Of a DNA stretch of 64,000 nucleotides, positions 35,887-49,129 are shown piece after piece (position 1 is the first letter of the stretch; the number at the start of each line of letters is the position of its first letter). A model generated the notes under the pieces. That model saw only the letters and a list, made by a program, of their open reading frames with translations, searched no databases and was not told the DNA's origin. This DNA comes from Desulfonauticus submarinus (lineage in GTDB: Bacteria > Desulfobacterota > Desulfovibrionia > Desulfovibrionales > Desulfonatronovibrionaceae): contig NZ_FNIN01000002.1 of NCBI RefSeq assembly GCF_900104045.1, positions 124,001 to 188,000 on the forward strand, in the 5' to 3' direction. Position numbers and translations under genes: made by a program.

Positions 35887-36054
35887 TTTTTACAAAATTG
35901 GCAAAATAAATCTTTTTCTCTTTAAGCTAATTTTCCATTTTTGTAAAAATAACTTATAATTTTATTATAAAAAATTTTTTCTTATCTAAGTATCTAAAAA
36001 AATTATTTTTTAGAGAAAACTTATTTTTATCTAAATTTTCCATTTTTGTAAAAA
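35887..36054. repeat. Three copies of a 20/21-bp sequence around the trpA 3' end
   Basis: AATTTTCCATTTTTGTAAAA is found at 35929-35948 and 36034-36053, both followed by another A. The second copy is the last codons of trpA (FLQKWKI). A diverged copy in the opposite orientation lies at 35887-35907 and could pair with the 35929 copy as a long imperfect hairpin. The rest of the 268-base gap between trpA and glnA is AT-rich, with a TTATAAT-TTT-ATTATAA palindrome at 35954-35970. Confidence 0.6.
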
Positions 36055-36786
36055 CTCTCTACTTTTACCTCCATTGTTTAAAAATCTAAGTAGAGAAGTT
36101 CCAAAAACAACTCCATCGATGAAAGAAATTATGGGTTTAATTTGAGTAGGATTTGAGAGTCCAAATCCTAAAACCACAGGACAAGAAAAAATCTTTTTTA
36201 TTTTCTCAAGAAGAGAAAGTAAACTATCTTCTATAAAAAGTTCATTGCCTGTAATTCCTAAAACAGAAACGATATAAACAAAAGGGGGATCTAACTCAGC
36301 ATACGCCTTCATACGTTTTATAGAAGTATTTAAGCCGATTAAAGGGATATACCTAACTTTACTCTGTTTTGGAAAGTATCTTTGATACTCTTCCAAAGGC
36401 AAATCTGGAATAATAAGTCCTTTTACCCCAACCTTGGAACAATCTTCAATTAACTTCTTAAGCCCATATTTATAAAATGGATTAAAATAACCCATTAACA
36501 CTAAAGGTGAATTAAACTTTCTTTGCGCTAATCCATCTAAAATATATTTTATATCTACACCTTCTTGAATAGCCTTCAAAGAAGCAGCTTCAATAACTGG
36601 GCCATCTGCCACAGGATCTGAAAATGGGACACCTATTTCAATAATATCAGCCCCATTTTCATCTAACTCTTTTAATTCCTCCCAAAAATTTTTTTTGTCT
36701 GGAAACCCAGCAGTGATAAATGGAATTAAAGCTACTCTTGAATTCTTTTTAACCTCATTAAATTTATAAACAAAACTATCAGACAT
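36031..36786 (-). CDS. trpA: Tryptophan synthase alpha subunit
   Basis: 251 residues. TIM barrel with IEIGVPFSDPVADGP (catalytic Glu and Asp of the PFSDP signature), LVLMGYFNPFYKYG, GLIIPDLPLEE, and GFGLSNPTQ for phosphate binding. It cleaves indole-3-glycerol phosphate to indole. Last gene of the trp operon, 15 bases after trpB. Its final codons lie within a sequence duplicated downstream. Confidence 0.95.
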   Translation of the reverse strand: MSDSFVYKFNEVKKNSRVALIPFITAGFPDKKNFWEELKELDENGADIIEIGVPFSDPVADGPVIEAASLKAIQEGVDIKYILDGLAQRKFNSPLVLMGYFNPFYKYGLKKLIEDCSKVGVKGLIIPDLPLEEYQRYFPKQSKVRYIPLIGLNTSIKRMKAYAELDPPFVYIVSVLGITGNELFIEDSLLSLLEKIKKIFSCPVVLGFGLSNPTQIKPIISFIDGVVFGTSLLRFLNNGGKSREFLQKWKI

Positions 36787-36801
36787 CTTTATTAACTCCT
36801 T

Positions 36802-37965
36802 CTAGTAGTTTTTAAAAACAATATCTAAATCTTTATCCCCTCTGCCAGACAAGTTTACTACCACATTAGTCTCCTTAGATAATTGATTTTTTAGCTTAAA
36901 TGCATAGGCTAGAGCGTGAGAACTTTCTAATGCAGGAATAATCCCCTCAGAGGAGCTAAGTTTATAAAAAGCAGCCAAAGCTTCTTGGTCATAAACGACT
37001 TCATAACGCGCCCTGCCAATACTTTGAAAGTAGGCATGTTCTGGCCCAACCCCAGGATAATCAAGACCTGGGGCAATAGAGTGAGAAGGTAATATTTGTC
37101 CTTCTTTAGTCTGCAAAAGTGCAGTCATGGTGCCATGAAGAACACCTGGGGTCCCTTTAGTTAAGGTAGCTGAATGAAAATCCTCCTCTTTACCACTTCC
37201 CCCTGCTTCTACACCAATTAATTCTACATCTTTATCCTCAAAAAAAGGATAGAAAATGCCCATGGCATTTGAACCTCCACCAACACAAGCAATAATTTTG
37301 TCTGGCAAACACCCCATCTGCTCATAACACTGTTTTTTAGCCTCTCTTCCAATAACAGCCTGCAGCTCTCTTACTAACAAAGGAAAGGGATGGGGTCCTA
37401 CCACAGATCCTATACAATAATGAGTGTCTTTTTGATGAGAAATCCAGTACCGCAAAGCCTCATTAATTGCATCTTTCAAGGTTTTTGTACCACTATCCAC
37501 AGACTTAACCTCTGCCCCAAGGAGTTCCATTCTTTTTACATTTAAGGCTTGCCTTTTTACATCTAAAGCTCCCATAAAGACTATACATTTTAATCCTAGC
37601 ATAGCAGCAGCTGTTGCTGTTGCTACTCCATGTTGCCCTGCGCCTGTCTCTGCGATCAATTGTGTTTTCCCCATAAATTTAGCTAGTAATGCCTGTCCTA
37701 GGGTATTATTTATCTTGTGAGCTCCAGTATGGGTTAAATCTTCTCGTTTAAGCCACAACCTAAAGCCCAATTCCTCTGATAAATTAGGACAAAAATATAG
37801 AGGGGTAGGACGACCAGCATAATGTATTAAAATACTCTCCAATCTTTCCTTAAATTCTCTAGAACCTAAAAAAGTATTCATTGCTTCTTCTAATTCCTGC
37901 AAAGGTGGCATAAGCAACTCAGGCACAAACTGACCACCAAACTTGCCAAAATAAGTATTAGTCAT
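36802..37965 (-). CDS. trpB: Tryptophan synthase beta subunit
   Basis: 387 residues. Standard TrpB1: GGQFVPE start, [15 protein letters not shown] with the PLP lysine, [21 protein letters not shown] phosphate loop, [13 protein letters not shown] (COMM region). It joins indole and serine, forming the alpha2-beta2 complex with TrpA. It overlaps trpF by 8 bases. Confidence 0.96.
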
Positions 37966-38575
37966 TTTTTTCTCCTTTAAAGTTAATTTGCTTTAAAATA
38001 GAGCTAACTTTTTCTTTACTTTTAATCCCTGGTCTACTCTCTACTCCAGAGTTTAAATCTATTCCTAAAGGACCAATCTCTAGTATCTTTCCTAAATTGT
38101 GGGGATTTATACCTCCAGCTAAAAAAATAGGATAATCCTTAAGAAGTTTTATCCATTCTCCAAACTCAATAATCCTCCCATGCCCTCCTAAAGATTTACC
38201 TGCATCAAATAAAAAATATTTCACAAAAGGCAAAAATATATCCAATTCCTTTTTCAACAAACTAACATTATCATATCTTTCTGGCCAAACCACTTTAATC
38301 ACTTTTTCTGCCTCAAGTTCCTTACATAATTCAAAGTCATAATCTCCATGCAATTGAACAAAATCAAATTTATTCATTATATTTTGTATTTCATGTACTC
38401 CCTTATCTACAACAACACCAACCTTTTTAAGTTTAGTACAAAGATTATCAACAAATTCTAATTCTACTTTCCTAGGACTTTTTGAATACAAAATAAACCC
38501 TATTAAATCTATTTCCATCTTTTCTAGCCATTTTATATCAGATAAACGTGTAATACCACATACTTTGACAATCAA
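37958..38575 (-). CDS. trpF: Phosphoribosylanthranilate isomerase
   Basis: 205 residues. TIM barrel beginning [11 protein letters not shown] (catalytic Cys), with [28 protein letters not shown] (catalytic Asp) and [10 protein letters not shown] for phosphate. Converts phosphoribosylanthranilate to CdRP. The gene overlaps trpC by 4 bases and trpB by 8, so the three are translationally coupled. Confidence 0.94.
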
Positions 38576-39351
38576 TTATTACCTCCATAAACAAGATTTC
38601 TTAAAGTTAAGCATATTTTTTCTTGCTTCATTAAATATGTGCCTATTAAAAAAGCATCATATCCAATATTTTTTAAATCAACCAACACGCTTCTTTTACT
38701 TAATCCACTTGCTGAAATCCATATTTCATTATCTTCCTTATATTTTATTAAATTATAAGAAGTTTCTAAATTCACCTTTAAAGAATTTAAATCCCTATTA
38801 TTTACTTGAATAATCTTAGCCCCTACGCGTTTTGCTATTTCCAAATCCTTTTCAGAAAACACTTCTACAACTGGTTCTAGCTTCTTTTCCAAAGAATAAA
38901 AATATAATCGTTCAAAATCACTCATATCTTCAAACAATCTAACAATTAAAAGAACAGCAGAAGCTGGTGTAGTTGCTGTAATTTCTACTTGTAGGGGGTG
39001 AAAAATAAAATCTTTTCGTAAAATAGGAAGCCCAAACAGCGCAGCACGATATAAAAAGTCTATCTTGCCAGCAAAATAATTCTCTTCTGTTAAAATGGAA
39101 AACGCTATAGCACCTCCTTCTTTATAAAAAACAAGCACATTTTCCAAATCTGCCTTAGAATTAATATTTCCTAAAGAAGGAGAAGCCTTTTTAAATTCTG
39201 CTATAATGTTTATCTTATCTAAGGAGTTACTAATAGCCTTGGAAAACGATTCTTTATTTTTCCCCCACTCAGGAGGAAATTTATTATGAAATTTCAAATC
39301 AACTAGTATTTTTATTTCTTTTAACTTAGATTTTTTAAACTTATTTAGCAT
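38572..39351 (-). CDS. trpC: Indole-3-glycerol phosphate synthase
   Basis: 259 residues. EFKKASPSLGNIN carries the catalytic Lys, ILTEENYFAGKIDFL and ILRKDFIFHPLQVE follow, then QVNNRDLNSLKV and SASGLSKRS for phosphate. Length is standard for a monofunctional TrpC. It overlaps trpD by 7 bases and trpF by 4. Confidence 0.95.
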   Translation of the reverse strand: MLNKFKKSKLKEIKILVDLKFHNKFPPEWGKNKESFSKAISNSLDKINIIAEFKKASPSLGNINSKADLENVLVFYKEGGAIAFSILTEENYFAGKIDFLYRAALFGLPILRKDFIFHPLQVEITATTPASAVLLIVRLFEDMSDFERLYFYSLEKKLEPVVEVFSEKDLEIAKRVGAKIIQVNNRDLNSLKVNLETSYNLIKYKEDNEIWISASGLSKRSVLVDLKNIGYDAFLIGTYLMKQEKICLTLRNLVYGGNN

Positions 39352-40352
39352 AATTGCTCCTTAGAAAACAAACTATTAACTCCTGTATTGACCTTTTCTC
39401 TAGCTTCTTGAAAACACAAACCTAAATCCTTTCCTTTTAACAAATACAAGACGCACCCTAGATTTAACGCTACCATAGCTTTTAATTCTTTTGGCCCCCT
39501 GCCTAATAGAACTTGTTTTTGAAGCAAGATAGCCTCCTCTTTAGTAGAACACATTAACTTTTCCTCTTCTACTATAGGGAATCCATAGTCAGCTGGATTT
39601 AATTCAAATGAAAAAATAGAGCCATTTTCAACAAAATATATTTTATTGATTCCACAAGGTGTTAATTCATCAAATCCTTTTGCTCCATATACTACGCATC
39701 CTTTTTTGATATTCTCTTTCTTAGCTAACACCCTTGCCACTAAAGGTAGAAATTCTTGATTAGGAACTCCTATAATTTGATGTGTGGGAAATGCAGGATT
39801 TAAAAGAGGGCCTATAAGATTAAATAGGGTCCTTACTCCAAGTTCTTTTCTAATAGGCGCTACATTAGCAAAGCAAGGATGAAAATAAGGAGCAAATAAA
39901 AAAACAAAATTTCTTTTTTTCAATTCTTGTTGGACTAAACTTTCTTCCTGAACAATAGGCAAATCTAAGGCCTCTACAACATCGGCACTCCCACAGGTGC
40001 TAGAAATAGCCCTATTACCATGTTTTACTACTTGTATCCCCATATCTGCTAAAAAAAACGCCACCGCAGTAGAACAATTAAAGCTTTTTTTACCATCTCC
40101 ACCTGTACCACAAGTATCCACTAAAATTTGTCCAAGTCCCTTTACTTTCCTCGCTTTATCTAAAGCCACATCCACAGCACCTAAAATCTCATCTTCTGTT
40201 TCTCTTTTAGCACTAAGTCCCATTAAAAGGGCTGCTGTTTGTACAGGAGAAACTTTGTTTTCAAAAATTCTTTCAAAGGCCTGCCTACTTAACTGATAGT
40301 CCAGATCTCTTCCTTTACTAAGCCGATCAAGACAGACATTTATAACTTCCAT
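39345..40352 (-). CDS. trpD: Anthranilate phosphoribosyltransferase
   Basis: 335 residues; AAGGAGG lies before the ATG. PRPP motif VDTCGTGGDGKKSFNCSTA and KHGNRAISSTCGSADVVEAL are typical, as are FLFAPYFHP and RTLFNLIGPLLNP. It transfers phosphoribose to anthranilate. It is separate from trpG (15 bases apart) rather than fused as in enterobacteria. Confidence 0.95.
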   Translation of the reverse strand: MEVINVCLDRLSKGRDLDYQLSRQAFERIFENKVSPVQTAALLMGLSAKRETEDEILGAVDVALDKARKVKGLGQILVDTCGTGGDGKKSFNCSTAVAFFLADMGIQVVKHGNRAISSTCGSADVVEALDLPIVQEESLVQQELKKRNFVFLFAPYFHPCFANVAPIRKELGVRTLFNLIGPLLNPAFPTHQIIGVPNQEFLPLVARVLAKKENIKKGCVVYGAKGFDELTPCGINKIYFVENGSIFSFELNPADYGFPIVEEEKLMCSTKEEAILLQKQVLLGRGPKELKAMVALNLGCVLYLLKGKDLGLCFQEAREKVNTGVNSLFSKEQLC

Positions 40353-40367
40353 TTTTACCTCCTTTTG

Positions 40368-40929
40368 TTATAAATTTAAAAAATTTTCTAAAATCTTAGG
40401 TCCGTTCTCACTTAAAACAGACTCGGGATGAAACTGTACACCATACCAAGGTCTATCTATATATTTTAATCCCATTACCTCCTTTTCTTTTGTCCAAGCT
40501 ATGACTTCTAGCACTTGAACTTTTTGAGGATAAACTAACAAAGAATGATATCTTGTCATTGTAGTTGGACTTGGAATCCCGTTAAAAATTTTCTCTTCTT
40601 TTTTAAAATAAATAGGAGATGTTTTTCCATGCAAAATATTACGAGCTGGTTTTACTTTTGCACCTGCAAAATACCCTAAAATCTGATGGCCCAAACACAC
40701 CCCTAAAATAGGAATTTTCTTCTTTACAAAACGCAATAAATCTAAACAATAACCCGCATTCTCTGGTTTACTTGGTCCAGGAGATATTAGTATTTTTTTT
40801 AGCCTTTTTAATTAATTCAAAAAGACTCTTATCATCATTACGTAATACTACAGGATCTTCTCCTAAAACTTGTAAGACCTGAACCAGGTTGAAAGTAAAG
40901 GAGTCATAATTGTCTATTAACAAAATCAT
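40368..40929 (-). pseudogene. trpG: Anthranilate synthase glutamine amidotransferase subunit, frameshifted at an A8 run
   Basis: ATG 40929 has GGAGG six bases upstream and overlaps the trpE end by 26 bases. It encodes MILLIDNYDSFTFNLVQVLQ as expected for TrpG, but the frame breaks at an eight-base A run (40793-40800) and stops shortly after. Shifting by one base restores ILISPGPSKPENAGYCLDL and runs on through GVCLGHQILGYFAG (catalytic Cys) to GVQFHPESV, the His-Glu of the triad. With seven A's the gene would be intact and of normal length. It may be a real mutation, a sequencing error or a slippage-corrected gene. An intact trpG would supply ammonia to TrpE. Confidence 0.85.
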
Positions 40930-42313
40930 CAGTTCCTCCCTGAATTTTTAAAGACTTTAATATTGCCTTGGCTTTATTTTGACATTCCTGCCACTCTTTT
41001 TCAGGATTAGAGTCAAACACAATCCCTGCCCCAGCCTGCCCATAGACCTTTCCTTTTCTAAACCACAATGTTCTAATGGTGATGCCAGTATCTAAACTTA
41101 CCCATTCTTTGTCTAAACCGAGCCAACCAATTGCTCCTGCATAAGGACCTCTAGAATGTGGTTCTAGTTCAGCTATAATTTCCATAGCCCTTATTTTTGG
41201 AGCACCAGAAACAGTCCCTGCTGGAAAAGTCGCTTTAAGCACATCAATGGCTTTTAATCCTGATTTTAATGTAGATCTTAAATAAGAGGTAAGATGCATT
41301 ACATGAGAAAATTTCTCCACCTGCATAAATTTTTCTACTCTTACACTACCTTTAGCAGATATTTTCCCCAAGTCATTTCTTCCTAAATCAACCAACATCA
41401 CATGCTCAGCTCTTTCTTTTGGATCTGATAAGAGTTCTTTTGATAGTTCTATATCTTCTTGTTCAGTTTTTCCTCTAGGGCGAGTGCCAGCAATTGGTCT
41501 TAATTCTAAGAGATTCTTTTCACACTTAACCATTAATTCAGGCGAACATCCCAACAATGTCTCTGTCTCAAAACGCATAAAAAAACTATAAGGTGATGGA
41601 TTAATTGACCTTAAACGACGATAGACTGTGAATTCATCTCCCTTAAAAGACGCCTCAAAACGAGTAGATAATACTACTTGGATGGCCTCTCCCTGTTGAA
41701 TAAGTTTCTTTGTTTTTATTACAGCTTCTTGAAATTTCTGTTTAGAAAAAAGAAATTTTAATTTTCCTACTTTAATATCTGGGTGTTCTCTTCTTCTTTT
41801 AGGCCGTGGTAAATCTCCATGTCCACTTAAAGAAATAAAAATACAACGATGGTACAAATGCTCAAACAACAATAATTTTGAGGGAAGCACTAAACAGGCT
41901 TCTGCTTCCTCTACAGGTAAAAATGGGGTTAATTTTGGCTCAAAATGAGAGGCTAACCCATATCCAAGATAGCCAATTAAGGATCTCGTTAAAAAAGGAC
42001 AGAAAATGTTTTTCGGGGATATAATTTTTAAATTATCTAGCAAATTTTGCAATCCATCTAAAAAACTCTCCCCTTGAAAGTCCAAAAAAGACTTTAAAGA
42101 GCTATCTCCTATTTTTAATTTTAATTTACCAGCCACACATCTTGCTTCTAAAATGAAGTCCCAGGCCAATAGACTATACTTGCCAAGTCTTCCATCAATT
42201 TCTGCACTTTCTAATAATATACCTGGTTTCTTACCAATTAAATCTAAAAAAAGAGATACAGGGGTTTGAGTATCTGCTGATAAGATTTTTGCTTCTTGCT
42301 CTAAAACAATCAT
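40904..42313 (-). CDS. trpE: Anthranilate synthase component I
   Basis: 469 residues, ATG after AAGGAGGAAAG. Chorismate-binding fold: LLESAEIDGRLGKYSLLA (Trp feedback site region, LLES plus later SPYSFFMRF), ELRPIAGTRPRGKTEQED, AEHVMLVDLGRNDLGK, HLTSYLRSTL and TFPAGTVSGAPKIRAMEII. It forms anthranilate from chorismate with TrpG. First gene of the trp half of the cluster; immediately preceded by an intrinsic terminator. No fusion. Confidence 0.94.
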   Translation of the reverse strand: MIVLEQEAKILSADTQTPVSLFLDLIGKKPGILLESAEIDGRLGKYSLLAWDFILEARCVAGKLKLKIGDSSLKSFLDFQGESFLDGLQNLLDNLKIISPKNIFCPFLTRSLIGYLGYGLASHFEPKLTPFLPVEEAEACLVLPSKLLLFEHLYHRCIFISLSGHGDLPRPKRRREHPDIKVGKLKFLFSKQKFQEAVIKTKKLIQQGEAIQVVLSTRFEASFKGDEFTVYRRLRSINPSPYSFFMRFETETLLGCSPELMVKCEKNLLELRPIAGTRPRGKTEQEDIELSKELLSDPKERAEHVMLVDLGRNDLGKISAKGSVRVEKFMQVEKFSHVMHLTSYLRSTLKSGLKAIDVLKATFPAGTVSGAPKIRAMEIIAELEPHSRGPYAGAIGWLGLDKEWVSLDTGITIRTLWFRKGKVYGQAGAGIVFDSNPEKEWQECQNKAKAILKSLKIQGGTDDFVNRQL

Positions 42314-42330: not shown

Positions 42331-42371
42331 AAATAAAAAAAGCCGTATCCTCAGGGAGGACACGGCTTTTT
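42331..42371 (-). terminator. Terminator/attenuator in front of trpE
   Basis: Minus strand AGCCGTGTCCT-CCCTG-AGGATACGGCT (one G-U pair) followed by TTTTTT and ATTTTT. It lies between the tyrA stop (42398) and the trpE ribosome-binding site. The T run ends only a few bases before AAGGAGG, leaving no space for a promoter, so trpE can only be expressed by read-through. The TCCTCC in the hairpin could also pair with the trpE AGGAGG. Confidence 0.82.
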
Positions 42372-42397: not shown

Positions 42398-43171
42398 TTA
42401 TGGTCCTCCCTTTATTTTTATGTTTCTCCACCACCACCAAGCTTTCTCTGCCAACACTTCTAAATCTCCAGCCGCTGCTAAATTTAAATAAGATTTAAAT
42501 TGACGCACACTTTCTCCAGAATATGGATTTTTTTCAAACAAATCTGCAAACAACCTAAAATCTTTTACCAACATTTTATAGGCAGAATCCATTCTCCTCT
42601 GAAAAGAAGGGGTAATAAATTGTTCAATCTCCTTTTGGCCAGCTTTATAAGCAAAATAGGTCAAGTTTGTTATAAAATTTAATCCTTGGATATAAGCCAT
42701 TGCTTTATCATGCTCAACAGCAGAAACAATAAATGGATCAAATCCTAAATCTTGCCAAAAAGTATAAACCAACTCCATCTCAGATTCAGATATCTTGCCA
42801 GGACATAAAGCTATTTTTCTAAAATCATCCTTAAGATCAGGGCCAAACAAGGGATGAGAACCTACAACAGGTCCTGAAAAACTTTCTTCCATCATTTGCA
42901 AAGGTAAAACTTTTACTGAACAAATATCCATCAAAATTTGAGAACTATGAAGATAAAAAGAAATTTCTTTTAAAACATTTGTTAACGACTTAATAGGAAC
43001 GCAAAGCAATATTAAATCACTCCTTGAAAGGGCATCTTCTATATCTTGTAGGTTTAAGGGCAAATCAAATCCATATACCAAGTAACCTGAATTTTTAGCT
43101 TTTTTAAAAAATAACCTTCCCATCTGTCCTCTTGAACCAAAAATAGTAATTTGCTTTATTGACTTAAGCAT
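42398..43171 (-). CDS. tyrA: Prephenate dehydrogenase
   Basis: 257 residues. NAD-binding ITIFGSRGQMGRLFF, VGSHPLFGPD with the catalytic His, and a helical dimerisation C-terminus (FITPSFQRRMDSAYKML). No fused chorismate mutase and no ACT domain. It oxidatively decarboxylates prephenate to hydroxyphenylpyruvate. It overlaps the aroA stop by 8 bases. Arogenate specificity cannot be excluded. Confidence 0.88.
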   Translation of the reverse strand: MLKSIKQITIFGSRGQMGRLFFKKAKNSGYLVYGFDLPLNLQDIEDALSRSDLILLCVPIKSLTNVLKEISFYLHSSQILMDICSVKVLPLQMMEESFSGPVVGSHPLFGPDLKDDFRKIALCPGKISESEMELVYTFWQDLGFDPFIVSAVEHDKAMAYIQGLNFITNLTYFAYKAGQKEIEQFITPSFQRRMDSAYKMLVKDFRLFADLFEKNPYSGESVRQFKSYLNLAAAGDLEVLAEKAWWWWRNIKIKGGP

Positions 43172-44492
43172 AGGCTAATATCTCGTTTATTATAGAGAAA
43201 AAATTAGGAAAAGATTTAGCCACACAATCTGGATTATCCAAAATCACTTCTATTCCTTTAAAACGATATAAACTTAAGCTCATAGCCACTCTATGATCAT
43301 TGTAAGAATGAAAATAACACTTTTTTCTTAAATGTTCTTGAGGCACAATCTCTAATTTATCCGCCTCTATGTATGTTTTTGTCCCTGTTTTACTTATTTC
43401 TTTTGCCATAGCTTCTAATCTATCGCTTTCTTTAATCCTCAAATGAGCAACATTTTTAATAACTGTTTTTCCTTTTGCCAAAGAAGCCAACACAGCTACT
43501 GTTGGAACAAGGTCAGGACACAATCCCATATCCACCTCTATTCCCGTTAAAAAAGAAGGATATGCCACTACCCCTTCTTTTTTAATCTCTAATTTAGCTC
43601 CCATATTCTTTAAAATATCTAAAATAGCCCTATCCCCTTGAAGAGACTTTAAATTAAGTCCTTGGACATAAATAGGCTTTCTACCTAAAACTCCTGCACC
43701 TAAAAGATAAGAAGCATTGCTAAAATCTCCTTCTACCTTAAAACAAGTCGATTTCAACGTCTTTGGGAAAACAATAAATCTTATTTTACCGGGTATAACA
43801 GCTTTAATTTCTCTAAAATCTTTATTTAGCCATTTATTATTTTCAAAAACCTGAACCTTAAATTTACCGCCAAAATTTTCTAACACCTCTAAAGTCAAAC
43901 CAACATAAGGCCAAGACACAGCCTTTTTACCTATCACCTCAATAGTAATCTCTCTCTTTGCTAAAACAGCACCTAAAATTAACCCAGATAAATATTGACT
44001 AGATTGTTCTAAAGAGACTTGTAAGCATCCACCATTTAACCCCACCGAATCTAATATAAAAGGAGGGCACTTGGCCTTCTTTAAATAAGTAAAAGTTGTC
44101 CCAGTATTTTTTACTGCCTTTTCTAAACCATCTATAGGTCGTTCTCCCATTCTTCCTGCTGGGACAAATTCAAACTTTCCTCTAGCACCACAAAGCAAAC
44201 CTGTAATCAACCGAAAGGTCGTTCCTGACTCTCCACCATAAAGACATATCTTATTTGAAAAATTAAACTTTTTCCCTCTACCCTTTACCAACAATAAAGA
44301 ACCTTTTGTTTCTATTTTAACCCCTAACGATAATAAACACTCTCTTGTCCTTAAAATATCTTCACTTTGCAACACATTATCTAAACAAGATTCTCCATCT
44401 GCTAAAGCTGCACAAAGAAGCGCTCTATGCGAAATAGATTTAGAAGGAGGAGCTTCTATAGTTAATATTTTATCTGAATTATACTCTTGCAT
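43164..44492 (-). CDS. aroA: 3-phosphoshikimate 1-carboxyvinyltransferase (EPSP synthase)
   Basis: 442 residues from ATG 44492 (GGAG nine bases before); GTG 44507 is the longer option. APPSKSISHRALL near the N-terminus is the PEP/S3P loop, GGESGTTFRLITG replaces the GNAGT form of enterobacteria, and GRMGERPIDGL, QSSQYLSGLILGA, HLRIKESDRLEAMA and YNDHRVAMSL follow. It joins shikimate-3-phosphate and PEP. It overlaps pheA by 14 bases. Confidence 0.93.
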   Translation of the reverse strand: MQEYNSDKILTIEAPPSKSISHRALLCAALADGESCLDNVLQSEDILRTRECLLSLGVKIETKGSLLLVKGRGKKFNFSNKICLYGGESGTTFRLITGLLCGARGKFEFVPAGRMGERPIDGLEKAVKNTGTTFTYLKKAKCPPFILDSVGLNGGCLQVSLEQSSQYLSGLILGAVLAKREITIEVIGKKAVSWPYVGLTLEVLENFGGKFKVQVFENNKWLNKDFREIKAVIPGKIRFIVFPKTLKSTCFKVEGDFSNASYLLGAGVLGRKPIYVQGLNLKSLQGDRAILDILKNMGAKLEIKKEGVVAYPSFLTGIEVDMGLCPDLVPTVAVLASLAKGKTVIKNVAHLRIKESDRLEAMAKEISKTGTKTYIEADKLEIVPQEHLRKKCYFHSYNDHRVAMSLSLYRFKGIEVILDNPDCVAKSFPNFFSIINEILAYA

Positions 44493-45564
44493 CCAAATAT
44501 TCTCCACTAGGATAACTACCCAATACTTTTAAAGTATGGCACATTATACCTAAATCATATATTAAATTTTTATATTCATTGCTGGTTAAATCACACTCTA
44601 CATCTGCGAAAAAAACATATTTCCACTTTTCACCTCTTAAAGGCCTAGACTCTAATTTTTTTAAATTAATGCGTTCTCTAGCAAAAATTTGTAATACCTC
44701 AAAAAGAGCACCTGGCTTATCTGGCAAAGTAAAAACAATAGAAGTCTTTTCTTTTCCCTCTTTTTCTGAAGGAGAGGACGCTATAATCAAAAATCTTGTC
44801 CAATTATCTGGAAGATCTTCTATTCGAGCAGCTAAGATATTAAGATCAAACAAATTAGCTAATTTCCTATTACCAATAGCAGCCAAATTCTCGTTTTGAC
44901 ATACCTTTTGAGCAGCCTGAGCAGTACTAGGCATAGGCACTAACTCAGCATCTGGGAGATTAAGCTTTAGCCACGTACTACACTGTTCAAGAGCTTGAGG
45001 ATGAGAAAGCACCTTTGTAATAGTTTCCATCTTTTTTGCTTTAGAAAGCAAACTATGACTGACCCGATAATAAAATTCTGCATGAATAAAAACATCATAA
45101 CGCATAAAAAAATCTAAACTTTGTCCAACACTTCCTTGTAAAGAATTTTCTAACGGAACAATTCCCAATTCTGCTTCTCCATCCACAACACCCTTAAAAA
45201 TTTCTTCAATATTCCTTTTAGGTAAATAATCTAAACTCTGTCCCAAATATTCTAAACCAGCTAGATGAGAAAATGTTCCTTCTGGGCCAAGAAACAAAAC
45301 AACCTGAGGACGTTGTAAACGTCTAGAAGAAGACAAAATCTCTCTATAAATAGCTAAAAGGTGTTCTTTAGGAAGGGGACCTATATTTTGCTTAAGAAGA
45401 TTTTTTAAAATTTCTCGTTCTCTAAATGGTTTAAAAACAATATCATCAGAATTAGCTTTTATTTTACCCACCTTTAAACTAAGTTCTGCCCTCTGATTAA
45501 GTAATTCCACTAACTTAGTGTCTATAATATTTAATTTTTGGCGAATTTCTTCTAAAGTTTCCAT
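44479..45564 (-). CDS. pheA: Bifunctional chorismate mutase/prephenate dehydratase
   Basis: About 361 residues from ATG 45564 (TTG 45579 is an alternative). AroQ chorismate mutase helix bundle at about 1-85 (EEIRQKLNIIDTKLVELLNQ), prephenate dehydratase at about 95-275 (VLFLGPEGTFSHLA, GIVPLENSLQGSV, NWTRFLII) and an ACT domain at about 280-361 (TSIVFTLPDKPGALFEVL, LKKLESRP). It channels chorismate to phenylpyruvate; the ACT domain normally gives Phe feedback inhibition. Confidence 0.95.
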   Translation of the reverse strand: METLEEIRQKLNIIDTKLVELLNQRAELSLKVGKIKANSDDIVFKPFREREILKNLLKQNIGPLPKEHLLAIYREILSSSRRLQRPQVVLFLGPEGTFSHLAGLEYLGQSLDYLPKRNIEEIFKGVVDGEAELGIVPLENSLQGSVGQSLDFFMRYDVFIHAEFYYRVSHSLLSKAKKMETITKVLSHPQALEQCSTWLKLNLPDAELVPMPSTAQAAQKVCQNENLAAIGNRKLANLFDLNILAARIEDLPDNWTRFLIIASSPSEKEGKEKTSIVFTLPDKPGALFEVLQIFARERINLKKLESRPLRGEKWKYVFFADVECDLTSNEYKNLIYDLGIMCHTLKVLGSYPSGEYLDARV

Positions 45565-45568
45565 GACT

Positions 45569-46540
45569 CTATTTTTCAATAATTTCTTCTTTTATTTTCA
45601 TTCCAAAATGCCTACCTGCAGAGTCTAAATAAGCCTTTACCTTATCCCCTACCTGTAAATTAACCACACTAATAGGACCTTCTGGACCAACTAAACGAAT
45701 AGTCTCAGCATTTTGTAAAATCACACAACCAGAAAGCCCGTCCACCTCTGCTTCAATCAAAAGCATTGGACGTATTTCTGTCTTTATTCGACCAACAACA
45801 GCTATTTCCTGCTCTCCATTTTCATTTACAATCAAAACTTCATTTCCTGGTCTTAGTTCCTCTAAATAAGCAGTTTTATCTGCAGGCAAAAAAGTATAAG
45901 AATGCACTCCTCCTGCATTTATCCTAAATGGACGAGGAGAAACATATGGATTAGATTCTGTCTCTGCATGAACCAAAAAAGTAAATTTTGAAGAGTTTCC
46001 TACTAACATTCCCTGGCCAGTCTTTAACAAGGAAACAGTATCCACACACACTCTATGACCAAGACCAATAGGCTCTATTTTTTTTATCGTTGCCAATTGC
46101 AAGTTTATTTTGCCCTGATTTAGTTTTGCCAAACGAACAATCTCCTTTAAATCCCTACTAGCTGTAGGTAAAACCATTAAAAACTCTACCCCTCTTTCCA
46201 AAATACCAAGAGAAGTTTGAGCCTGAGACAAAGAACTCACTTCTTTACCTATATTTTTTACTTGAGCCAAAATATTCTCTATAGGAATAATTTCTGTATG
46301 CTCCAAAAGAACAACTTGTTTACCTTCTTTTGCTAACTTCACTGCTTGTTTTTCATCTTTTTTATCTTGAATATCAACAAACACAAAATCTTCTGGCTCT
46401 AAAACTTCTATCCTTCCAAGACTTCTTACATCTTCAACATGTTTTTTTTCCACAACAACAGCATCAACACCTGACTCTAAAGCCAAAGTAACCAATTTTT
46501 TTTCAAAAGGTATTGCCTTAAAAAAAATTTTTTTAGACAT
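45569..46540 (-). CDS. 3-dehydroquinate synthase II (archaeal-type)
   Basis: 323 residues, unrelated in sequence to AroB. It matches the DHQS-II family: a barrel-like N-terminal half (LALESGVDAVVVEKKHV, VFVDIQDKKDEKQAV) and a C-terminal half with IEPIGLGHRVCVDTVSLL, GMLVGNSSKFTFLVHAE, SPRPFRINAGGVHSYTF and LIEAEVDGLSGCVILQNAET. It oxidatively deaminates and cyclises the ADTH product of the next gene (46544) to 3-dehydroquinate, using NAD. Only three bases separate the two genes. Confidence 0.9.
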   Translation of the reverse strand: MSKKIFFKAIPFEKKLVTLALESGVDAVVVEKKHVEDVRSLGRIEVLEPEDFVFVDIQDKKDEKQAVKLAKEGKQVVLLEHTEIIPIENILAQVKNIGKEVSSLSQAQTSLGILERGVEFLMVLPTASRDLKEIVRLAKLNQGKINLQLATIKKIEPIGLGHRVCVDTVSLLKTGQGMLVGNSSKFTFLVHAETESNPYVSPRPFRINAGGVHSYTFLPADKTAYLEELRPGNEVLIVNENGEQEIAVVGRIKTEIRPMLLIEAEVDGLSGCVILQNAETIRLVGPEGPISVVNLQVGDKVKAYLDSAGRHFGMKIKEEIIEK

Positions 46541-46543
46541 AAA

Positions 46544-47353
46544 TTATTCCCCGTCTTTTGTTTCTAAAATAGCTAAAGCATCTTCAATACTTCCCTCCTC
46601 ATGTACAATACATGAAAGAGCTTTAACAAGTTTAGTGGGATTATCATGTTGAAACACGTTACGCCCCACTGAAAGCCCAGCACCTCCAGCTGCAATAGAA
46701 TTGTAAACCATTTTAAGAATATCATAATCGCTATTCATCTTTTCACCACCTGCAATTACCACAGGAATACAGCAGGCCTCTACCACTCTTTCAAAACTCT
46801 CAGCACTTCCAGTATAAGGAACTTTTACTACATCTGCCCCCAGTTCCTCTCCCAATCTAGCGCAATGTTTAACTACCTCTACATCATACTCATTTTCTAT
46901 TTTTGGCCCCCTTGCATACACCATAGCCAAAACAGGCATACCCCATTCATTAGCTCTAGAAGTAACATCTCCCAACGCTCTAAGCATATCGCGTTCTGTT
47001 TCATCTCCTATATTTACATGAACTGACACACCGTCAGCCCCTAAACGTATAGCATCTTCTACTGTACCCACCAAAGTTTTGGCATTAGGAAAAGGCGACA
47101 AACAAGTGCTAGCAGAAAGATGAATAATTAGGCCTACATCTCTTCCATGCCCTCTATGAGAGCAACGAGGGAGTCCCTTATGCATAAGTACTGCGTTTGC
47201 TCCACCTTCTGCCACCTTATTTACAGTATCTCTCAAATCAATTAAACCATAAATAGGTCCAACGGTAACTCCATGATCTAAAGGGACTATAATAGTCCGC
47301 CCTGTGTTCCTATTAAAAATTCTCTCCAGCCTTACGACTTTTCCAAGCTGCAT
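46544..47353 (-). CDS. 2-amino-3,7-dideoxy-D-threo-hept-6-ulosonate synthase
   Basis: 269 residues from ATG 47353, after AAGGAGGCGAAA. DeoC/FbaB class I aldolase: [70 protein letters not shown] with the Schiff-base Lys, and [12 protein letters not shown]. It condenses aspartate semialdehyde with a 6-deoxy-5-ketofructose phosphate, replacing DAHP synthase. First structural gene of the aromatic cluster, downstream of the leader-peptide attenuator. A plain fructose-bisphosphate aldolase is unlikely given the neighbouring DHQS-II. Confidence 0.9.
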
Positions 47354-47404: not shown

Positions 47405-47440
47405 AAAAAAAGGGCCGCTGGCTTTTGCCTGCGGCCCTTT
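47405..47440 (-). terminator. Attenuator terminator of the aromatic cluster
   Basis: Minus strand AAAGGGCCGC, inner AGGC-AAAA-GCCA, then GCGGCCCTTT and a T run ending the hairpin. It follows the leader-peptide stop by 29 bases and precedes the first structural gene by about 50. Its 5' arm (47427-47434) can instead pair with GCCTGTGG at 47489-47496, inside the leader coding region, as an antiterminator of 8 to 11 pairs with wobbles. Confidence 0.9.
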
Positions 47441-47469
47441 GGGATCTTTTTATTTGTTTATTAAAAAGC

Positions 47470-47565
47470 CTACAACTCACCCTCCAGACCACAGGCCCTC
47501 ATAAAATAATAATACCAAAAAAACCAAAAATAACTGAGGTTGTGGTTGGAGAGTTGTACATTCAT
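47470..47565 (-). CDS. Aromatic leader peptide (31 residues, ten aromatic in a row)
   Basis: ATG 47565 to TAG 47470. The peptide is MNVQLSNHNLS followed by YFWFFWYYYF and MRACGLEGEL. Codons 12-21 are all Tyr, Phe or Trp: four Phe, four Tyr and two Trp. It sits between a promoter-like pair and the terminator at 47405-47440, directly upstream of the aromatic operon, so it is a control peptide of the PheL/TrpL kind. A 5' segment (47547-47557, ACAACTC-TCCA) can pair with 47472-47486 near the leader end, giving the classical 1:2, 2:3, 3:4 options. There is no strong ribosome-binding site. Confidence 0.9.
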   Translation of the reverse strand: MNVQLSNHNLSYFWFFWYYYFMRACGLEGEL

Positions 47566-47574
47566 AATGATTTA

Positions 47575-47603
47575 CTTTTAGGCAAAAGTAAAATTCCTGT
47601 CAA
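47575..47603 (-). promoter_or_regulatory. Promoter of the aromatic cluster with overlapping palindrome
   Basis: TTGACA at 47603-47598 (perfect -35), 17-base spacer, then TAAAAG at 47580-47575 (partial -10). Transcription would begin about 47568, only a few bases before the leader ATG. A palindrome TTTACTTTT-GCCT-AAAAGTAAA (47593 to 47572) covers the -10, a possible repressor site. The -35 lies just past the stop of the upstream binding-protein gene. Confidence 0.65.
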
Positions 47604-47609
47604 GTCTTT

Positions 47610-48788
47610 TTATTTAGGACAAATAGAATCTTTAAATACAAACTGCCCCTTATTATTAATCTGAACAACTACCGCACATTTTACAGGATCTCCTTGATAG
47701 GTAAAATGCATCTTACCTGTCACTCCTTCAAAATTTCTAATCTTGGATAAAGCAAAACGCAAAATAGACTTATTTTTTTCCAAATCATTTCCTAACAAAT
47801 CCTCTGCATTTTTTAATGCAGTTAAAAGCAAATTTAAAGAATCCCAAGTAAGTGCTGCTGGATCATCTGGCAAATATCCGTATGTTCTCTTAAATAAATC
47901 TACAAATTGCTTATTTTTACCTTTAGCGCCTAGTGCAGCATAATGGGTTGAGAAATAATATCCCACACATGCAGATCCACATAATGGGAACAAATCTGCC
48001 GACCCCCAAGAATCAGAACCAAAAATAGGTTTATTCCAACCCAACTTCTTTAAATCTTTTACTAATTTAGCTACTTGATAATAATGACAAGGCAAGAAAA
48101 TCATATCTGGATTTGCAGAAACCAATCTTCTCGCTAAATTTAAAAATTTATCTTCTCCTGTCACAAAACTGTCAAAAACTATCACACTCCCCTCTCCGTA
48201 TACATCTTCCCAGTCCAATTTAAATAAAGCCGCTAGATCTTTGGAATAATCATCATCACTTACATAAATAATACCAACCGTTTTTTTAGATTTAGACTCA
48301 GGCAATATTTTGTTAGAAAAATAAAGGGCAACTTCACTCTGAAAAGGATCTAAAAAAGCTGCTCTAAAAACCCACGGCCTATTAATCGTAGTTTTAGGAT
48401 TTGTAGACCAAGGAGAAATCATTAATGTCTTTTTTTGATTACATACTCCCCCTGTGGGTACTGCTTGTCTACTAGCCATCGGCCCAACAATTGCCCATAC
48501 TTTATCTTTATCTATTAATTTTAACGCAACTTTTTTAGCAACTTCAGGATCAAATTTATTATCTTCGTAAATAAATTCTAACATATATCGCTTCCCGCCT
48601 AAAACCAATCCTCCCTGAGCATTTATTCTATTCTTTATTAATTCAGCAGCATCTTTAGCTGATTTACCAGTTTGCTGGTTTTCACCACTAAGCGGAAGGT
48701 CAAAACCTATCTTTATTGTTTCTGCAAAACTCACACTAGAAAAAACTATAACCAAATAACACAATAAAAGTGATACTACTCTTTTCAT
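47610..48788 (-). CDS. Branched-chain amino-acid-type ABC transporter substrate-binding protein
   Basis: About 392 residues from ATG 48788 (GAAGGAGGAATTAT before it). A signal peptide (1-22, ending VSFA) is followed by TIKIGFDLPLSGENQQTGKS, the usual LivK start, with AIVGPMASRQAVPTGGVCNQ, VGIIYVSDDDY, DMIFLPCHYYQVAK and AALTWDSLNLLLTAL. Periplasmic. No permease or ATPase gene is next to it, so the ligand is unknown; the position before the aromatic cluster hints at an amino acid. Confidence 0.85.
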   Translation of the reverse strand: MKRVVSLLLCYLVIVFSSVSFAETIKIGFDLPLSGENQQTGKSAKDAAELIKNRINAQGGLVLGGKRYMLEFIYEDNKFDPEVAKKVALKLIDKDKVWAIVGPMASRQAVPTGGVCNQKKTLMISPWSTNPKTTINRPWVFRAAFLDPFQSEVALYFSNKILPESKSKKTVGIIYVSDDDYSKDLAALFKLDWEDVYGEGSVIVFDSFVTGEDKFLNLARRLVSANPDMIFLPCHYYQVAKLVKDLKKLGWNKPIFGSDSWGSADLFPLCGSACVGYYFSTHYAALGAKGKNKQFVDLFKRTYGYLPDDPAALTWDSLNLLLTALKNAEDLLGNDLEKNKSILRFALSKIRNFEGVTGKMHFTYQGDPVKCAVVVQINNKGQFVFKDSICPK

Positions 48789-49129
48789 ATAATTCCTCCT
48801 TCGCTTTCCATCCAAACGCCTTTAGAATAATGGGCGCATTATTAATAAAAAATGAAAAGTAAGTCTACTTTTTACATGAAAATACTAATTTTTTTTACAA
48901 AAAAACATTTGTTGCTTATTTTATTAAATAATTTCAAAATGTTATGTTAATGTTTTTTATTTAATTCACAAAGAGTACAACAGTATAAACAATAAACAAT
49001 AAGCAAAAACTAAACAGGCCTTCTAAATATAAAGAATCTTAAAGTCTAGTCTTATTTTTTTCTTGAAAACGCAATGTTTCTTAATTAAATAAGTTTAGAA
49101 AAGGAAATTAATGCTAATTGGAGGACAAG
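48789..49129. other. Divergent AT-rich intergenic region with two inverted repeats
   Basis: This 341-base gap separates the binding-protein gene (minus) from the coiled-coil membrane protein gene (plus). I see AATAATG-GGCG-CATTATT at 48831-48848 and AAAAGTA-AGTC-TACTTTT at 48855-48872. The second has the same half-site as the palindrome over the aromatic-cluster promoter. A TTGAAA with a TAAATA 17 bases downstream near 49060-49090 may be the plus-strand promoter. No gene-sized frame. Confidence 0.4.

Follow-up and report, generated by a model that had tools for sequence, protein, structure and literature searches.

A predicted ribosome-mediated attenuator with phenylalanine, tyrosine and tryptophan control codons, and a putative second, tryptophan-only attenuator at tyrA/trpE, in the aromatic gene cluster of Desulfonauticus submarinus and other Desulfovibrionales

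The stretch of the Desulfonauticus submarinus genome that we analyzed (64,000 nucleotides, hereafter the window) carries on its minus strand a shikimate-Phe-Tyr-Trp gene cluster in the order ADTH synthase, 3-dehydroquinate synthase II, pheA, aroA, tyrA, trpE, trpG, trpD, trpC, trpF, trpB, and trpA (Table 1). The trpG gene is frameshifted (about 40368-40900, minus strand), with its N-terminal part (LIDNYDSFTFNLVQVLQ...) and the remainder (SKPENAGYCLDLL...) in different frames, and this may be either a sequencing error or a real lesion. Upstream of the ADTH synthase gene is a compact element comprising a promoter, a short open reading frame and an intrinsic terminator, the gene itself beginning approximately 50 bases past the T run of the terminator. 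The promoter is closely preceded by the end of a gene for a Peripla_BP_6 (Liv-like) binding protein (47610-48815, minus strand). A link of this gene to aromatic uptake is possible, because a gene of the same family in another genome (L288 in G407) has a Phe-run leader, SSSFFFFFG, upstream.

Table 1. Positions of the attenuator elements and the genes of the aromatic cluster in the window.
Feature	Position	Strand	Details and evidence
Sigma70-like promoter, TTGACA-17-TAAAAG	47575..47603	-	TTGACA 47603-47598, 17-nt spacer, TAAAAG 47580-47575
Predicted leader peptide ORF, 31 codons, MNVQLSNHNLSYFWFFWYYYFMRACGLEGEL	47470..47565	-	Orthologous leaders in 63 genomes
Control codons YFWFFWYYYF, ten aromatic in a row	47503..47532	-	Located in the 1:2 loop
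Region 1, 5' arm of protector (anti-antiterminator) helix	47541..47556	-	Folding and shuffle test
Region 2, partner of region 1 or region 3	47473..47496	-	Antiterminator arm GCCUGUGGUCU at 47496-47486
Region 3, GGGCCGCAGGC, antiterminator 3' arm and terminator 5' arm	47427..47437	-	Pairing over 47 sequences
Intrinsic terminator hairpin (3:4), GC-rich, with T run	47405..47440	-	Folding and covariation
ADTH synthase gene, first structural gene	46544..47353	-	TIGR01949, 402.8 bits; AAGGAGG upstream
3-dehydroquinate synthase II, chorismate mutase/prephenate dehydratase (pheA), EPSP synthase (aroA), prephenate dehydrogenase (tyrA)	42398..46540	-	Upper half of the regulated cluster
Four Trp codons (WWWW), 3' end of tyrA	42428..42439	-	Proposed control codons
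Internal region 2, AGGGAGGAC, last tyrA codons	42402..42411	-	Complementary to 42361-42353
Internal intrinsic terminator between tyrA and trpE	42337..42371	-	-24.2 kcal/mol
trpE, trpG (frameshifted), trpD, trpC, trpF, trpB, trpA	36031..42313	-	Lower half, past both attenuators

The promoter, the 31-codon frame and the GC-rich terminator with its T run, all of which had been described in a first-pass annotation of this sequence, were recovered on the minus strand. The run of ten aromatic codons is not readily ascribed to chance T-rich codons, an explanation we rejected: the next aromatic run by length in any reading frame of the window, all six considered, has seven residues, a pattern search found the exact ten-residue run only once in the genome, and the same arrangement recurs in 63 genomes. 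Folding gave the terminator a free energy of -24.8 kcal/mol (z -6.0). The alternative pairing that had been proposed between 47489-47496 and 47427-47434 is real and is longer than claimed, since GCCUGUGGUCU (47496-47486) pairs with GGGCCGCAGGC (47437-47427) over 11 bp (z -3.3). Folding also identified a protector helix between 47556-47541 and 47493-47473, absent from the first-pass annotation, which completes the classical set of four regions. The element thus has the properties of trpL/pheL-type attenuators: a leader, its translation predicted from the sequence, with an unbroken series of codons for the amino acids whose synthesis is regulated; an intrinsic terminator separating that leader from the first gene; an antiterminator that shares an arm with the terminator, so that the two are mutually exclusive; and a protector helix, for which per-sequence duplex tests showed stronger pairing of regions 1 and 2 than in dinucleotide shuffles for 40 of 67 leaders (p ≤ 0.05; z -3.2 in the window).

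The leader and its hairpins are not confined to this species. As the first-pass annotation had suggested checking, they are found elsewhere in the Desulfovibrionales, with the leader kept ahead of the ADTH synthase gene in 63 of the genomes tested, representing six families, and a search for close relatives that had lost the aromatic run but kept its flanks turned up none. Across these genomes the aromatic run is often FYFWYFYF or near it, followed by RACGLEG; several genomes have second ADTH synthase copies that lack a leader (L049-L053, L055-L057). In an alignment of 47 sequences, 95.6% of cells in the terminator were paired, with 11 double-change cells, and 94.4% of those in the antiterminator, with five double-change cells that include a change from UA to CG; the latter are few because the antiterminator core is nearly invariant. 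Pairing is also retained in L127, in which the stem has been replaced wholesale, and in L128, in which it is altered. Column-wise covariation of the 1:2 helix in a MAFFT alignment showed no excess over shuffles, probably as a consequence of an arm that aligns poorly.

Two patterns of variation bear on what the leader encodes. Region 2 is kept as nucleotides even though it is read in another frame in four leaders (L054, L047, L128, and L146), so that conservation of the ACG residues is attributable to RNA pairing. Phe, Tyr and Trp residues, by comparison, vary in order and number between lineages (e.g., YFWFFWYYYF, FYFWYFYF, QYWYYWF, and SWYYFAYF). This combination of conserved region 2 RNA and drifting aromatic order points to codon-specific stalling of the ribosome.

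The position of the promoter is also informative. The leader ATG is 9 nt downstream of the -10 sequence TAAAAG in the window, and in 52 of 79 loci a TTGAC motif precedes the leader ATG by 35-42 nt, with a mode of 37. With this spacing, transcription would begin no more than a few nucleotides from the ATG, which makes a leaderless mRNA probable. The mode of initiation seems to have changed in one large family, because there TTGAC is often 51-60 nt upstream and a GGAG-like motif precedes the ATG in several cases.

Leader codons were compared with gene content in the 63 genomes. Among 223 well-sequenced genomes of the order, 13 have no trpA; trpD is retained in two of these, and 8 of the 11 lacking both genes yielded a usable leader. 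Of 55 genomes with trp genes, 52 have Phe, Tyr and Trp together in the densest 12-residue stretch of the leader. The Trp codon is missing from the leader in seven of the eight genomes without trpA and trpD vs. 3 of the 55 trp-positive genomes (Fisher p = 1.7e-6, uncorrected for phylogeny). The seven Trp-less leaders belong to G048 and G058 (one genus), G236-G238 (another), and G164 and G127 (two more), and perhaps represent four losses. The exception, G032, has Trp codons and no trpA or trpD; the assembly is fragmented into 490 pieces, with a break in the contig that carries the cluster. G072, G163, and G166, the three trp-positive genomes whose ADTH synthase leader has no Trp, have the trp operon at a separate location. 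This separate operon is preceded by a WW or WWW leader in G072 and G166 and in G163 by a candidate leader with a single Trp, which was read by eye on the strand opposite to the printed one. Other separated trp operons also bear their own Trp leaders (e.g., MNVFSNTISNSFKGWWWRIQLRGGDVRA). Extra ADTH synthase genes can have narrower leaders, which are Phe-only at L058, L123, and L124 (solitary status verified for L058 only) and Tyr runs at the solitary genes of L061 and L063. The lineages without trp genes retain dense runs of Phe and Tyr codons together with the hairpins.

On the basis of this conservation and covariation, and of leader codons that follow gene content, we regard ribosome-mediated attenuation sensing Phe, Tyr, and Trp as strongly supported. 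The first-pass annotation had proposed that starvation for any of the three would turn on the whole cluster. The sensing of three amino acids is well supported; the extension to the whole cluster has to be qualified, as the tyrA/trpE junction has a further terminator, accompanied by an antiterminator and by four Trp codons.

The TyrA protein ends in ...KAWWWWRNIKIKGGP, and the last tyrA codons include AGGGAGGAC, which is complementary over 9 bp to the 5' arm and loop of the internal terminator. The geometry is that expected of an attenuator: a ribosome stalled at the first or the last of the tyrA Trp codons leaves this internal region 2 free, and one at the tyrA stop codon covers it. Where trp genes adjoin tyrA, the control codons, antiterminator and terminator are conserved together; the terminator is present in 21 of 23 such relatives, and in 15 of those 21 the region 2 pairing exceeds shuffles (p ≤ 0.05), with matched changes on the two sides (GGAAGG/CCTTCC, GAGGAGTGC/GCGCTCCTC, and GGAGGATG/CATCCTCC) and with region 2 read in different frames among the relatives. 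Where the trp genes are elsewhere or lost, the internal terminator is absent as a rule, and by our own tally the Trp run of TyrA has a mean of 2.1 residues, compared with 3.1 where trp is adjacent. The element therefore appears to give the trp half of the cluster its own Trp-only control, a conclusion less certain than that for the first attenuator. The alternative is that it is a plain partial terminator and that WWW is merely a feature of the TyrA protein. Indeed, WWW persists in several lineages with trp elsewhere, making a protein role likely for part of the run, and the internal antiterminator forms even when no ribosome is present. Against this alternative stand the conserved terminator, the pairing with its matched changes, the reading of region 2 in different frames and the longer Trp runs where trp adjoins, and we consider it unlikely, if still deserving of some weight. 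When folding is done without a ribosome, the internal antiterminator is in place ahead of synthesis of the final terminator arm, and transcription at tyrA/trpE may therefore read through by default. Given the second terminator and the four Trp codons at this junction, starvation for only Phe or Tyr should chiefly increase expression of the aro-pheA-tyrA half. We know of no description of control codons embedded in tyrA. Their location suggests that control codons can sit within the end of an enzyme gene, where searches for small leader ORFs would miss them.

A Trp-only attenuator serving the trp half also bears on whether the first leader senses only one amino acid in practice (e.g., Trp, as in trpL), with the other aromatic codons being passengers. 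The presence of Trp does track the trp genes more clearly than anything else in the leader. Against this, lineages that have lost trp keep their dense Phe/Tyr runs and hairpins, extra ADTH synthase genes have the Phe-only and Tyr-run leaders noted above, and the trp half already has its separate, putative Trp attenuator; we judge single-amino-acid sensing improbable. We think it more improbable still that the nascent peptide itself arrests the ribosome as TnaC does, the aromatic peptide jamming the exit tunnel and perhaps answering a free aromatic amino acid rather than tRNA starvation. In favor of arrest are the marked aromatic character of the peptide and the apparent conservation of RACG in its C-terminal part, yet we found no conserved peptide at fixed positions: the order and number of Phe, Tyr and Trp drift freely, the conserved part is RNA that is kept across frames, and the residues follow gene content, which arrest does not predict. 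In a search with Rfam 15 at the gathering threshold, tRNA was the single family matched in the whole window, with no T-box or other cis-regulatory RNA, and at E ≤ 10 no family fitted the leader element. Control of the terminator by a riboswitch, T-box or RNA-binding protein with an incidental ORF is barely credible: a terminator and antiterminator alone would fit such control, but the element matches no Rfam family above the cut-off, the ~160 nt from promoter to terminator are filled by the ORF and leave little room for a binding domain, and the codons match gene content.

We therefore favor an OR-gate for Phe, Tyr and Trp operated by ribosome-mediated attenuation, together with the second, Trp-only attenuator at tyrA/trpE, and hold this combination to be highly probable. 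What was observed are the sequence elements, the extent to which they are conserved and covary, and the agreement of leader codons with gene content; from these we infer stalling, read-through and the following order of events. RNA polymerase would start a few bases before the leader ATG with the ribosome trailing behind it. A shortage of tRNA charged with Phe, Tyr or Trp would stall the ribosome within the ten aromatic codons. As all ten are placed in the 1:2 loop, a ribosome halted anywhere in the run should prevent region 1 from pairing with region 2. The latter, so freed, would pair with region 3, block the terminator and allow the cluster to be transcribed. When all three amino acids are plentiful, the ribosome would reach the stop codon and cover region 2, which would then re-pair with region 1, leaving the 3:4 hairpin to form and transcription to end. 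The last tyrA Trp codons would subsequently decide whether the transcript continues into the trp genes. Constrained folding made the antiterminator the best fold for a stall at the first or third aromatic codon and the terminator the best fold with the ribosome at the leader stop codon. With a simple footprint, a stall at or after the sixth aromatic codon gave a 1:2-type helix as the best fold; that late-codon stalls would block 1:2 as well rests on a steric argument, namely that a ribosome occupying a 44-nt loop would keep the helix from forming.

More broadly, and with less assurance, we think it likely that two attenuators are stacked in one operon, a leaderless Phe, Tyr and Trp mini-ORF gating the whole cluster and the C-terminal Trp codons of tyrA gating trp only, and that across the order leader codons have been gained, lost and split as genes moved, so that codon content would predict the purpose of the downstream gene, transporters included. 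The value of such a multi-input attenuator is that the amino acids named by its codons can be compared with the genes present in dozens of genomes, some of which have lost Trp synthesis naturally. Experiments are practical because Nitratidesulfovibrio, the genus of a well-studied sulfate reducer, has the same leader (L246, L247).

Leader peptides that sense several amino acids are known from ilvGMEDA and thrABC, but those have branched-chain or Thr/Ile codons and unrelated genes. The pheL leader of enterobacteria (Phe_leader, RF01859) resembles the element in its Phe-rich ORF, its 1:2, 2:3, and 3:4 helices and its location upstream of aromatic biosynthesis, and it is the best sub-threshold Rfam match here by bit score (27.7 bits, below its cut-off of 55). 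It differs in that the leader described here would sense three amino acids, precedes an ADTH-type shikimate-Phe-Tyr-Trp cluster and probably has a leaderless mRNA. With trpL of the E. coli type the element shares the four-region logic, Trp codons before region 2 and an intrinsic terminator; unlike in trpL, Trp is one of three residues, and the pure Trp version is found at tyrA/trpE and at separated trp operons. A putative attenuator before the aroA'-aroB'-pheA-aroF-tyrA-trp cluster of D. vulgaris, which is the same cluster and position in a relative, is listed from Merino's database of predictions in Table 7 of Song et al. (2005; PMC1173090), the main text of which does not use the term leader peptide and, in the passages concerned, names neither sensed amino acids nor an internal attenuator. 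An attenuator before this cluster is not mentioned by Rodionov (2004). The uORFC-13-1 motif (PMC8632094), a predicted uORF attenuator ahead of a DAHP synthase gene, is different in being limited to Acholeplasma and in having at least one Phe codon, with Tyr and Trp not described. No Phe-Tyr-Trp leader was found described in the open-access literature searched.

A covariance model built from the leaders found two more elements in this genome outside the window. One (C2:260826-260966, L280) has the Phe/Tyr leader MNNQVVSSFYFYGYYFFGRYRTAAK ahead of genes for a 52-residue protein and an SSF sodium:solute symporter, and the same symporter gene has a Phe-run leader in G002. The other (C2:56486-56642, L289) has the Trp-rich leader MFTRYFQTANFKWQNCWWLWVDFCGLEGAL ahead of a TRAP-transporter-like gene pair that, recognized by eye from its sequence, looks like a TRAP transporter including its binding protein; Trp-rich leaders precede the same gene in at least seven relatives. 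Testable functions follow for both, the TRAP transporter behind a Trp leader and the SSF symporter behind a Phe/Tyr leader. Outside the order, leaders with Phe/Tyr or Phe/Tyr/Trp codons were found upstream of ADTH synthase or DAHP synthase genes. In G388, from another family of the phylum, the leader SVYYFWFYFYG and terminators (L287/L290) precede a DAHP synthase cluster with pheA and aroA matches, possibly an independent use of a three-aromatic leader. In G329, the Phe/Tyr leader NFYYFYYNEG and a terminator (L285/L291) are upstream of a gene for an ADP-forming acyl-CoA synthetase, which is no obvious aromatic biosynthesis gene.
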